In this document: positions 16,303 through 19,932 of the stretch, one piece after another | How positions within the stretch are numbered: position 1 is the stretch's first letter | How the letters are laid out: each line of letters starts with the position of its first letter | Source of the DNA: Pontiella desulfatans | Lineage (GTDB): Bacteria > Verrucomicrobiota > Kiritimatiellia > Kiritimatiellales > Pontiellaceae | Assembly (NCBI RefSeq): GCF_900890425.1 | Contig: NZ_CAAHFG010000003.1 | Span: 558,001-622,000, forward strand | Length of the DNA stretch: 64,000 bases | Reading direction: 5' to 3' | Made by a program: the position numbers and the translations under genes | The notes under the pieces: model-generated | Told to the model about the DNA's origin: nothing | What the model saw: the letters and a program-made list of their open reading frames with translations, nothing else | Databases searched by the model: none

Positions 16303-17106
16303 ATGAACGGAACCCCCATAACCATTGGCTATTCGCCCTGTCCGAACGACACCTTCATCTTTTGCCAATTGGCGAAGGAGCCGGACATTGAAACGCATTT
16401 GCATGATGTTGAAACCCTCAACCAATGGGCTTTCGAGGGAAAATTCGATGTGACGAAGCTCTCGTTCCATGCCTGGCTGCTGGTGCAGGATGAGTATGAA
16501 CTCCTCAACGTCGGCGCCGCGCTAGGGCGAGGTTGCGGGCCTTTGGTGATTGCTCGAAAAGGAGCGGAAGCGTTCGGGGGCGGGGCTGAAGCACACTTGC
16601 GCAAGTGTGCTTGCGTGGCTGTTCCCGGGGAATACACCACCGCCCATCTGTTGCTGCGTCTTTGGATGCCCGAAATCCAGAACCGCATCTTCATGCCGTT
16701 CAACCAGATCATGGGGGCCGTGGAGTCGGGCGAAGCCGACGCCGGGGTCATCATTCACGAAGGACGTTTTGTTTACAAGGAGCGCGGGTTCGAGTGCGTC
16801 CAGGACTTGGGCGAGTGGTGGGAGGAGACCACCGGGTTGCCCATCCCGCTCGGATGCATTGCCGCCAGGAAAGGGCTCGCGGCGGAAATCGAGCCGCGCC
16901 TGCGGAGGTCGATCCATGCGGCCTTCGAAGATCCGGGATCCACCCGGGACTATGTTCGCCAACATGCCCAGGAACTGGCCGAGGATGTGACCAGCGAGCA
17001 CATTAAAACCTACGTCAACGACTTCACCCTCGATCTCGGCGACGAAGGCCGCACGGCGATTCGTGTGTTGCAACAGAGGGCGAGAGATGCTGGGGTGATC
17101 CAATGA
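16303..17106 (+). CDS. mqnD: 1,4-dihydroxy-6-naphthoate synthase
   Basis: 267 residues starting ITIGYSPCPNDTFIF after a short leader, the family signature; the PGEYTTAHLLLRL segment follows near residue 110. MqnD converts cyclic dehypoxanthine futalosine to 1,4-dihydroxy-6-naphthoate in the futalosine route to menaquinone. Between the two conserved blocks is an in-frame stretch (GGGAEAHLRKCA) encoded by a perfect 24-bp palindrome, which looks inserted. It overlaps the next gene by ATGA and leads the menaquinone operon. Confidence 0.93.
   Translation: MNGTPITIGYSPCPNDTFIFCQLAKEPDIETHLHDVETLNQWAFEGKFDVTKLSFHAWLLVQDEYELLNVGAALGRGCGPLVIARKGAEAFGGGAEAHLRKCACVAVPGEYTTAHLLLRLWMPEIQNRIFMPFNQIMGAVESGEADAGVIIHEGRFVYKERGFECVQDLGEWWEETTGLPIPLGCIAARKGLAAEIEPRLRRSIHAAFEDPGSTRDYVRQHAQELAEDVTSEHIKTYVNDFTLDLGDEGRTAIRVLQQRARDAGVIQ
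16589..16612. repeat. Perfect 24-bp palindrome inside mqnD
   Basis: AAGCACACTTGC at 16589-16600 is followed at once by its exact complement to 16612. A degenerate copy of the same core (CACACTTGCGCAGGTGT) lies in non-coding DNA near 50,712, which suggests a dispersed palindromic element that has entered a coding sequence in frame. Confidence 0.7.
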
Positions 17107-18500
17107 TTGGCGTGTTGTTCGCAACAGAAATGGAAGCCCGACCATTCCTCGACCGGGGGGTGCCGGAAGGCGTCGTTGTTGAAATTTCGGAGGAAATGGG
17201 ACTTGAGGCCGCGCGTATTGCCACGGAAAAGCTGGTGAAGGAGCATGGGTGCAAGACGATCATCAATGCCGGCGTGTGCGGTGCTCTCAACAATCGGCTG
17301 GAGCGGGGCGCGGTCTATCGGGTTTCGATGGTCAGCATGGAGGAGTTGAAGGCCGCCGTGAACGTAGGCGTGGGCATTGGCTTGAAGCGTTTGGTTAGTG
17401 TTCAGGAACCGGTCTTCGAGCCGAAACGCAAGCGCGAGCTCTCTAAATATGGCGAGTTGGTCGATATGGAAGGCTATGCCGTGGCCCGTGTTTGCGAGGA
17501 GCATTCGGTGCCGTGCATCCTGATCAAGGGCGTCACCGACTTCGGCGACGGGAATGGGAAAGAGGATATCCAAAAGCATATTTCCCCGGTTTCGGAAACC
17601 GTGGCGGAGGCCGTTTTCCAGGTGGTGAATGGAACTTCCGGAGCAACCGCAGCAGGGCCAGGCGAAGCCACGATGCTGAAAAAGCTGCACTCCTTCACCA
17701 AGGTCGAGCACACGATCTTTAGCCTGCCTCTCTTGTTTGCGGGGGCGTGGATCGGGGCGGGTGGGGGGATGCCGGCCGTCAAATCGTTGCTACTGATCGC
17801 ATTGGTGGGCCTCGGGGCCCGCACCTTTGGCATGGCGGTCAACCGCATCCTCGATAAGAACATCGATGCCAGGAATCCGCGCACGGAAAACCGCGAACTG
17901 GCGACGGGTGCGCTTTCGATGGCGCAAGGGTATGCGGTGGCGATTGTTGGATTGGCAATCTACTTCGTCGGCTGCGCGCTCCTCGGGCCCACCGTGCTTG
18001 GGCTCTCGTGGTTTCCATTGATTCCGTTGACGCTCTATTCATTGCTGAAGCGCTTTACTCCACTGTGCCACTATGGCATCGGGGTGGCCCTCGGCATGGC
18101 GCCGCTCGGGGCATTCGTGGCCATAACCAATTCGCTGGCCTTCCCTCCGGTTTTGTGGTTGCTGGTGCTGTTCACCTTTTGCTGGATTAGCGGATTCGAT
18201 GTGATCTATGCCCTGATGGATATCGAATTCGACCGCGCGAACGGCGTGCGCAGTATTCCTGCGGCTCTCGGTTCCGTTGGGGCGCAGATGGTGGCGGCCG
18301 TTACGCACCTGGTTTCGTTCGCGGCGCTGGTGCTGATTTGGATGGGCACGGATTCGGTTCTCTCAACCATTGCCCTGCTGGTTTCCGCCGGAGCATTCGG
18401 TGCGGCCTACTTGCAAAACATCCCGGTTCCCGTTAGATTTTTCCCAATCTCCGCCATCGCCGGCATCGCCGGCGCACTGGTGGTGCTGTTCGGCGGGTAG
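17103..18500 (+). CDS. mqnB/mqnP: Futalosine hydrolase fused to 1,4-dihydroxy-6-naphthoate prenyltransferase
   Basis: 465 residues in one uninterrupted frame. Residues ~1-185 are a nucleoside phosphorylase-like hydrolase (GVLFATEMEARPFL; VDMEGYAVARVCEEHSVPC; KGVTDFGDGNG), matching MqnB, which releases hypoxanthine from futalosine. Residues ~190-465 are a UbiA-type membrane prenyltransferase with the two aspartate motifs NRILDKNIDARN (~246) and DVIYALMDIEFD (~365), matching MqnP, which prenylates the naphthoate. An internal ATG begins the MLKKLHSFTK segment, so a separate prenyltransferase could also be made. The two are usually separate genes. The N-terminal ATG overlaps mqnD. Confidence 0.88.
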   Translation: MIGVLFATEMEARPFLDRGVPEGVVVEISEEMGLEAARIATEKLVKEHGCKTIINAGVCGALNNRLERGAVYRVSMVSMEELKAAVNVGVGIGLKRLVSVQEPVFEPKRKRELSKYGELVDMEGYAVARVCEEHSVPCILIKGVTDFGDGNGKEDIQKHISPVSETVAEAVFQVVNGTSGATAAGPGEATMLKKLHSFTKVEHTIFSLPLLFAGAWIGAGGGMPAVKSLLLIALVGLGARTFGMAVNRILDKNIDARNPRTENRELATGALSMAQGYAVAIVGLAIYFVGCALLGPTVLGLSWFPLIPLTLYSLLKRFTPLCHYGIGVALGMAPLGAFVAITNSLAFPPVLWLLVLFTFCWISGFDVIYALMDIEFDRANGVRSIPAALGSVGAQMVAAVTHLVSFAALVLIWMGTDSVLSTIALLVSAGAFGAAYLQNIPVPVRFFPISAIAGIAGALVVLFGG

Positions 18501-18504
18501 GTTT

Positions 18505-19358
18505 GCAACGAATGCATGGAAAGCAACGAATGACTTTCTAGAATGAAAACTTGGCTCAATAACTCAACTGTGATTTATCCAGAATTGTCTTACTCGATTG
18601 TCGGTGCGGCAATGGTTGTGCACAATTCGCTGAAGCCGGGGTGGGATGAAAGGGATTACCATAGAGCCATGGTTGCGGTTCTGGAAAGCCGTGGACATGT
18701 TGTAAAGAGCCATGATCGAAAGGATCTCGTCTATAGAGGCGGAGTAGTGGATGGCTTTGAGTTGGATTTGCTTGTCGATGGTCTAGTTATTCTGGAATTA
18801 AAGCACCTTAAGGAAGGTTTTCATCCATCGCATTATACCCAAATCATAAACTATCTTAAACGCTGGGATAAACGTTTGGGGCTGCTAATCAATTATGGTC
18901 AGGAAAAGCTCAGGTATCAGCGAATCCCATTCTCCTGTTCCGAGGCGACTGTCGATTATGTTGGAGAGTGGGTTAAGCTTCCGGTCGAGGTTCGTGATTT
19001 GATCCGGGGGGCGGTTAACACGATAAACTCCCTGGTCGGTTGTGGATATGGAGCAGGGATTTATAAAAAGCTTCTGATGGCGGAGCCGGGCTTTCTTGGC
19101 GTGAAAGCCATAAACACTTGTCTGGCTCCAACCTTCAGTGAACAGTGCTTTGAGGAACGGGAAGTTGATGCAATATCTGTTGGTGAAGATTTGATAGTCC
19201 GGGTTTCGGCCTCTTCGTCTGCAACGGATTTGAGCTATCTTAAGACCTATATGAAGCATGCCGGTGCAAAGAATGGAATGCTTGTGAATTTAAACCATCA
19301 TGAAATGCAGTTGAGAGGAGTCCGGTAATGGATTCGTTGCTTTCCATTCATTCGTTGC
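18505..19358. mobile_element. GxxExxY cassette bounded by 28-bp inverted repeats
   Basis: The left repeat at 18505-18532 and the right repeat at 19331-19358 match in inverted orientation at 26 of 28 positions. Each contains two direct copies of GCAACGAAT. They enclose only the GxxExxY gene. The left repeat starts 4 bp after the mqnB-mqnP stop and the right repeat ends 13 bp before the ubiX ATG, right at its ribosome binding site. In RNA the repeats would pair into a long stem around the gene. No transposase is present, so the mode of movement is unknown; calling it mobile is inference from structure. Confidence 0.6.
18543..19328 (+). CDS. GxxExxY protein (PD-(D/E)XK-like)
   Basis: 261 residues. 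The N-terminal ~125 match the GxxExxY family (IVGAAMVVHNSLKPGWDERDY; VVDGFELDLLVDGLVILELKHL), whose D...ExK arrangement suggests a nuclease fold; the canonical GxxExxY is here GWDERDY. The usual protein is ~125 residues, so the C-terminal half (~135 residues, no recognised domain) is an addition. Codon and base use are visibly more AT-rich than the flanking menaquinone genes. The start has no clear ribosome binding site. The function of the family is not known; copies are often found in inserted sequences. Confidence 0.8.
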   Translation: MKTWLNNSTVIYPELSYSIVGAAMVVHNSLKPGWDERDYHRAMVAVLESRGHVVKSHDRKDLVYRGGVVDGFELDLLVDGLVILELKHLKEGFHPSHYTQIINYLKRWDKRLGLLINYGQEKLRYQRIPFSCSEATVDYVGEWVKLPVEVRDLIRGAVNTINSLVGCGYGAGIYKKLLMAEPGFLGVKAINTCLAPTFSEQCFEEREVDAISVGEDLIVRVSASSSATDLSYLKTYMKHAGAKNGMLVNLNHHEMQLRGVR

Positions 19359-19371
19359 GGAGAGGTTTGAC

Positions 19372-19932
19372 ATGAATTTGGTTGTGGCCATGACGGGCGC
19401 GTCCGGCGCGCTGGCGACGAAGCTGCTGATTGAAAAATCGCAGTGGCCGGTGACGCTGGTCGCCAGCAAGATGGGGCGCGTGGTCTATGAGCAGGAGGTG
19501 GGCCCCTTTGCGGAACTCGAAGCCTTGGCATCCGAGGTTTGGAAGGATGCCGACCTGACCGCAACGATTGCATCGGGTTCGGTGCCGACCGTGGGGATGG
19601 TTGTTATGCCGTGTTCGGCCAATACGCTGGGCAAGGTTGCGGCGGGCATTGCCGATTCGCTGGTGACGCGCGCGGCCCACTGCCAGCTCAAGGAGGGGCG
19701 CAGGGTGGTGCTGTGCATCCGCGAGGCGCCCTGGACCCTGCTCAATGCCCAAAACGCCGTGAGCATTGCCGCCGCCGGCGGAACCATCATGCCGATGTCG
19801 CCGCCCTACTATATGTCGAAGGGGCGCGACCCGAACGCGGTGTCGATGGCCGAAATGCTGGGGTATTATTGCGACCACGTTCTTGCGCTGTTCGGGCAGG
19901 AATCGCCCAAGACCTGGGAGGATATCCGATGA
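19372..19932 (+). CDS. ubiX: Flavin prenyltransferase UbiX
   Basis: 186 residues. MTGASGALATKLL at the N-terminus is the FMN-binding GASG loop; the PCSANTLGKVAAGIADSLVTRAA and REAPWTLLNAQN segments are typical. UbiX attaches a dimethylallyl group to FMN, making prenyl-FMN for a UbiD-type decarboxylase; in this cluster that would be the decarboxylation step of menaquinone synthesis (MqnM/MqnL), though the decarboxylase gene itself is not in the window. GGAGAGG precedes the start, just after the right cassette repeat. It overlaps ubiE by ATGA. Confidence 0.92.
   Translation: MNLVVAMTGASGALATKLLIEKSQWPVTLVASKMGRVVYEQEVGPFAELEALASEVWKDADLTATIASGSVPTVGMVVMPCSANTLGKVAAGIADSLVTRAAHCQLKEGRRVVLCIREAPWTLLNAQNAVSIAAAGGTIMPMSPPYYMSKGRDPNAVSMAEMLGYYCDHVLALFGQESPKTWEDIR

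Follow-up and report, generated by a model that had tools for sequence, protein, structure and literature searches.

The locus analysed here lies in the vitamin K2 (menaquinone) operon of Pontiella desulfatans, where a compact arm-gene-arm unit separates the upstream mqnB-mqnP fusion gene (17103..18500, + strand) from ubiX (19372..19932, + strand). The unit contains a single gene (18543..19328, + strand), coding for a 261-aa GxxExxY protein of the PD-(D/E)XK type that matches both TIGR04256 and PDDEXK_3. The gene nearly fills the space between the arms: its start codon is 11 nt past the left arm and its stop codon 3 nt ahead of the right one. The left arm (18505..18531, + strand), a member of a dispersed repeat family, is composed of three 9-nt registers, GCAACGAAT-GCATGGAAA-GCAACGAAT, the outer two being identical. 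The right arm (19332..19358, - strand) is an inverted copy that reads GCAACGAAT-GAATGGAAA-GCAACGAAT on its own strand, so that the common plan of the pair is GCAACGAAT-N9-GCAACGAAT. The two arms are 27 nt each, with 26 of the 27 positions paired, and are 800 nt apart.

A sequence-only reading of this DNA had described arms matching at 26 of 28 positions, each with a doubled sequence. Both statements hold: one further base gives 26/28, and GCAACGAAT occurs twice in each arm. The claim that the insertion cost the neighbouring genes neither a stop codon nor a ribosome binding site is also borne out, as the stop codon of mqnB-mqnP (..18500) is intact and ubiX retains its own ribosome binding site (GGAGAGG) after the right arm and its ATG at 19372. 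The same reading suggested a self-contained unit without a transposase, and the clean insertion at a gene junction and the absence of a classical transposase from the unit agree with this.

The window, that is, the entire 64,000-nt stretch analysed, holds no arm copies beyond these two, and shuffles of it are expected to yield 0.00. The inverted-repeat score of the arms is 24.5, whereas the best inverted repeats around 575 random stretches of the window (360 or 780 nt) have a maximum of 15 and a 99th percentile of 13. An origin of the arms by chance is ruled out by both comparisons.

A tandem of two GxxExxY domains

The protein matches, strongly in residues 14-128, the TIGR04256 family (E = 5.9e-35, 120.1 bits, cut-off 35) and Pfam PDDEXK_3 (PF13366; E = 6.8e-32, 110.7 bits, cut-off 22). 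Since both scores are above the curated cut-offs and the G33-E36-Y39 motif and residues D75, E85 and K87 are all present, we assign the protein to the GxxExxY/PDDEXK_3 family. That the protein combines two such domains in tandem had escaped the sequence-only reading. The N-terminal domain (aa 14-128; 18582..18926, + strand) has an intact PD-(D/E)XK site; a comparison of 18 homologues, the most distant at 20% identity, shows no change at E36 and D75 and few at E85 and K87. The C-terminal domain (aa 139-261; 18957..19325, + strand) is degenerate, with neither the motif Glu nor the E-x-K pair, and still matches TIGR04256, as do all 11 C-terminal halves tested. Profile-profile alignment of the C-terminal half with the N-terminal domain gives an E-value of 3.5e-7. 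Judged by its residues and profiles, the protein is a combination of one live and one apparently dead nuclease domain, the second half being a diverged copy of the first. While the match of both halves is what would be expected of a TIGR04256/PF13366 member, the live-plus-dead tandem arrangement sets the protein apart.

The AlphaFold model (mean pLDDT 91.9, pTM 0.85) displays the same order of structural elements twice. The solved folds nearest to the N-terminal domain are PD-(D/E)XK nucleases, namely Cas4-like 4ic1 (Z-score 11.4) and Hjc 1gef (Z-score 8.2); most other matches of the fold search fall into a range that may reflect just a common arrangement. No solved structure related by sequence to the tandem protein was found. 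Two other assignments were considered and rejected. The protein has no PADLOC match, which would have marked it as a component of a defence system. Neither does it seem to derive from phages or plasmids: no relative was found in phages or viral contigs, and plasmid matches span the N-terminal domain only.

Junction states and dispersed hairpins

Comparison of the operon among relatives, a check proposed in the sequence-only reading, revealed both empty and occupied alleles. The mqnP-ubiX junction is clean in G003, G007, G018 and others, where the stop codon abuts the start codon or overlaps with it, and holds the gene element in P. desulfatans itself (G000) as well as in G001, G009, G014 and G020. 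In G004 the element is a fused single-domain form, in which the two domains are joined in-frame and the catalytic residues and both arms are retained, and in G016 and G024 it has decayed. In other genomes the same junction carries short hairpins from one of two other arm families (G005, G012 and G021; G006, G008 and G017). Short hairpins also occupy a second junction, mqnD-mqnB, in G001, G004 and G016; in P. desulfatans this junction is empty. Such varied states imply either repeated insertion at gene junctions or one old insertion followed by replacement.

The host genes mqnB-mqnP and ubiX are conserved. The tandem gene persists beside ubiX across species and yet diverges much faster: its identity to the closest relatives is 50-58%, compared with 85-89% for the ubiX genes of these relatives. 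Its GC content is 46%, as against 59-63%. The persistence could be explained by a domesticated pair with a role for the host, in which the protein would act as a structure-specific (Holliday-junction-like) nuclease or binder and the hairpins, spread long ago, as landmark, processing or regulatory sites. The presence of Hjc and Cas4 nucleases among the fold neighbours fits this explanation, as does the gene or its remnant holding its place beside ubiX in about eight species. However, the fast divergence, the patchy presence and the other hairpin families at the junction look selfish rather than essential, and we consider domestication unlikely.

Unlike the window, the whole genome (8.66 Mb in 6 contigs) has further arms, about 30 copies in all, a feature not covered by the sequence-only reading. 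A pattern search found 29 matches at ≤3 mismatches and none with the reversed control; all genome-wide arm counts given here are pattern searches of this kind. Many dispersed arms form inverted pairs with a 12-18-nt loop, i.e. short hairpins without a gene, and other copies retain just one 9-mer on one side. The hairpins show a weak flank preference, and in 32 distinct hairpins no target-site duplication was recognised by eye. In their middle 9-mers, dispersed arms show greater similarity to the gene arm found in the same genome than to gene arms from other genomes (permutation p = 0.0014). Arm numbers are modest in Kiritimatiellota (~30 arms), while one KSB1 genome has 232 (control 0). In two P. 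desulfatans hairpins (L056, G000:C1:104000; L070, C1:3921605) the right arm is split by a 44-nt GC-rich sequence, GTTGCCGCTTCGCTGCC...CTTCGTG, which resembles another dispersed repeat.

These data do not sustain the idea that the arms serve solely to bracket the gene, in the manner of an rRNA intervening sequence; they constitute a dispersed hairpin family. The sequence-only reading had held that arms found elsewhere with no GxxExxY gene would speak against a mobile unit. Taken literally, such arms are there, but they have the appearance of miniature versions of this element. As short inverted repeats that are non-autonomous and have a gene-bearing relative, they resemble MITEs. They appear to differ from MITEs in that the gene-bearing parent encodes a PD-(D/E)XK protein, not a DDE transposase, and in that no target-site duplication was recognised by eye.

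Coupling of the gene to its arms and a proposed mobile system

We collected 28 tandem homologues (20-58% identity) from Kiritimatiellota (relatives of Pontiella), Verrucomicrobia, candidate division KSB1 and Chloroflexi/Anaerolineales. Inverted arms closely bracket the gene in 26 of them (scores 17-31; three cases were read directly), and one more, L221, is a weak case with a score of 13.5. The only homologue without recognisable arms is L090 (G016:C55:127107-127871), in which the catalytic E and K are now Q and S; in this copy the arms and the active site have decayed together. The arm sequences differ by protein subfamily (GCAACGAAT.., CCAGCGAAT..TACGAAT, CCAACGAATGACAAAAAGCAACGAAT, GCAACGGAT.., AGCAAAATGATT.., GGCAGAAT.., CCAACGGAT..) and share a common plan of short repeated units.

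The GGCAGAAT hairpins seen at the mqnP-ubiX junction in three genomes prompted a search for further GGCAGAAT arms, and in G012 and G021 pairs of them ~0.8 kb apart were found to enclose a further tandem GxxExxY gene. We had guessed wrongly that, in G021 and G012, it is the AGCAAAAT-type homologues that bear GGCAGAAT arms; these arms flank another tandem gene. A AGCAAAAT arm pair, also ~0.8 kb apart, encloses a 266-aa tandem gene in G005:C83. P. desulfatans itself has a second, distant tandem gene (L013, G000:C5:391336-392052) with arms of its own, AAGCAAAATCATTTAATGCAAAATG, and ~29 dispersed copies of them. An arm pair is nevertheless not a simple marker of the gene: in KSB1, ordinary genes lie within a pair 1.4 kb apart.

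Across 40 genomes, for three types, every genome with the gene subfamily has its arm, while among the others the arm occurs in 8/32, 11/36 and 6/36. The respective Fisher p-values (1.7e-4, 2.3e-3 and 1.5e-2) should be read with the relatedness of the genomes in mind, which makes them non-independent, and the two arms of the gene itself are part of the arm counts. Some genomes have arms and no detected gene (30 GCAACGAAT arms in G021 and 24 of another type in G030); the gene may have been lost, missed in draft assemblies or may not be needed for persistence of the arms. Overall, the gene is coupled to its arms, and the arm type follows the protein subfamily, which points to recognition of the arms by the protein.

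A relation of this sort is known from RAYTs, whose transposase gene is single-copy, invariably lies between inverted REPs and evolves in concert with them (PMC2817692, PMC3116915). The likeness is considerable: a single-copy gene between inverted repeats, hairpins of matching sequence dispersed elsewhere (here, too, the repeats are scattered as inverted doublets), a repeat type that tracks the gene type, repeats enriched where the gene is present, and fast evolution of the gene (PMC2817692, PMC3116915). Again as in RAYTs, the gene unit is single-copy per subfamily and can hold one locus through speciation while hairpins spread. The differences are that the arms here are built of 9-nt registers, that the gene both starts and ends a few bases from them and that it encodes a tandem PD-(D/E)XK protein and not an HUH Y1 transposase. 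The Y1_Tnp loci of the genome have no arm, and as no Y1 enzyme is associated with the arms, the system does not count among the RAYT systems, despite its RAYT-like behaviour.

Alternatively, the hairpins might be moved by some other transposase, the GxxExxY gene being cargo caught between two copies. The genome does encode other transposases, including 19 Y1_Tnp matches, and hairpins are present in genomes without a detected cognate gene. However, GCAACGAAT does not occur even once within 1.5 kb of any of the 19 Y1_Tnp loci, and we therefore rejected a RAYT as the mobiliser in P. desulfatans. Moreover, the same protein family lies between differing, subfamily-matched arms in at least four phyla, and its active-site residues are conserved down to ~20% identity, unlike those of passive cargo. 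Taken together, a cargo role appears unlikely.

The explanation we favour, and consider probable, is that the unit represents, in its gene-bearing form, a mobile hairpin-repeat system whose protein would recognise and cut its arms and thereby spread the hairpins. The PD-(D/E)XK nuclease is the likely mobiliser. REPIN-RAYT serves as the model here: the arm sequence, probably in the form of a DNA hairpin or cruciform, is most likely recognised by the protein encoded between the arms, which would cut at that place. Copying or movement to new places would then mostly concern short hairpins and less often the complete gene unit, and the moved copies would often survive at gene junctions. The binding and cutting of the arms, the mobilising chemistry and the way of copying are inferred. 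Related genes with their own arms in at least four phyla suggest a previously undescribed gene-repeat partnership that works like REPIN-RAYT with an unrelated enzyme. In the literature found, only RAYT and MITE work was relevant and nothing linked the GxxExxY family to repeats; subscription journals were mostly outside this coverage, and a prior description is possible.

If correct, this explanation would provide a role for GxxExxY, a widespread family of unknown role, and account for a whole set of hairpin repeats dispersed in phyla that have been little studied. It would also add a second, independent example of the relation seen in REPIN-RAYT, making the persistence of gene-repeat pairs testable on an unrelated enzyme. 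The arms would serve as ready-made substrates, and the dead second domain offers a built-in hypothesis for their recognition.

Single-domain GxxExxY and four-helix-bundle genes

Inverted arms are not confined to the tandem genes. Among single-domain GxxExxY genes of P. desulfatans and its relatives (L002-L012, L099-L113), 17 of 19 lie between inverted repeats scoring above the 95th percentile of the null (11.0-11.5); for those on plasmids of other phyla this is the case in 3 of 7. The arms of single-domain genes mostly consist of approximately three 8-9-nt units, e.g. CGCAAAGA or CACAGAGGA. A wider proposition is that the dispersed hairpins have no other encoded mobiliser than a GxxExxY PD-(D/E)XK nuclease, which would take the place of an HUH, DDE, serine or tyrosine enzyme. 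This class of mobile element would be present in several phyla and have many arm-specific subfamilies, and the single-domain genes would be further members. We regard the case for and against this proposition as evenly balanced.

Several intact genes of the four-helix-bundle family (PF05635, the 23S IVS protein) in the P. desulfatans genome (L284-L287 and L289) are likewise located between inverted arms, in this case of heptamer repeats such as GTATTGC or GAAATTG. They bear on the comparison, made in the sequence-only reading, of the unit with 23S rRNA intervening sequences. Carried further, it would make the unit their counterpart in an mRNA, with arms that pair, a stem trimmed by RNase III and a protein that is a passenger or helper. 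Part of this proposal stands: the predicted fold of the 886-nt transcript pairs the arms fully, and the four-helix-bundle genes are bracketed too. The Coxiella IVS, whose 28-bp terminal stem is cut by RNase III, similarly has a small gene between complementary arms of ~28 bp and leaves the host transcript unharmed (PMC4990558). Other features speak against it. The tandem unit is located between mqnP and ubiX, in an mRNA operon and not in an rRNA gene, and all tandem copies with identified neighbours adjoin protein genes; an mRNA cut at the stem would split the operon. The protein has another fold, and the arms are an independent repeat family, dispersed and found mainly without the gene. Cleavage by RNase III would not call for arm sequences that follow the protein subfamily, as these do. 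We therefore give the RNA analogue little credence as an account of the unit.

A broader, tentative idea is that several families of small genes travel between inverted arrays of short units. On a Sphingomonas parapaucimobilis plasmid (NZ_CP155749.1, L299), a single-domain GxxExxY gene with inverted arms lies between fabD and fabG, once again within a core operon.
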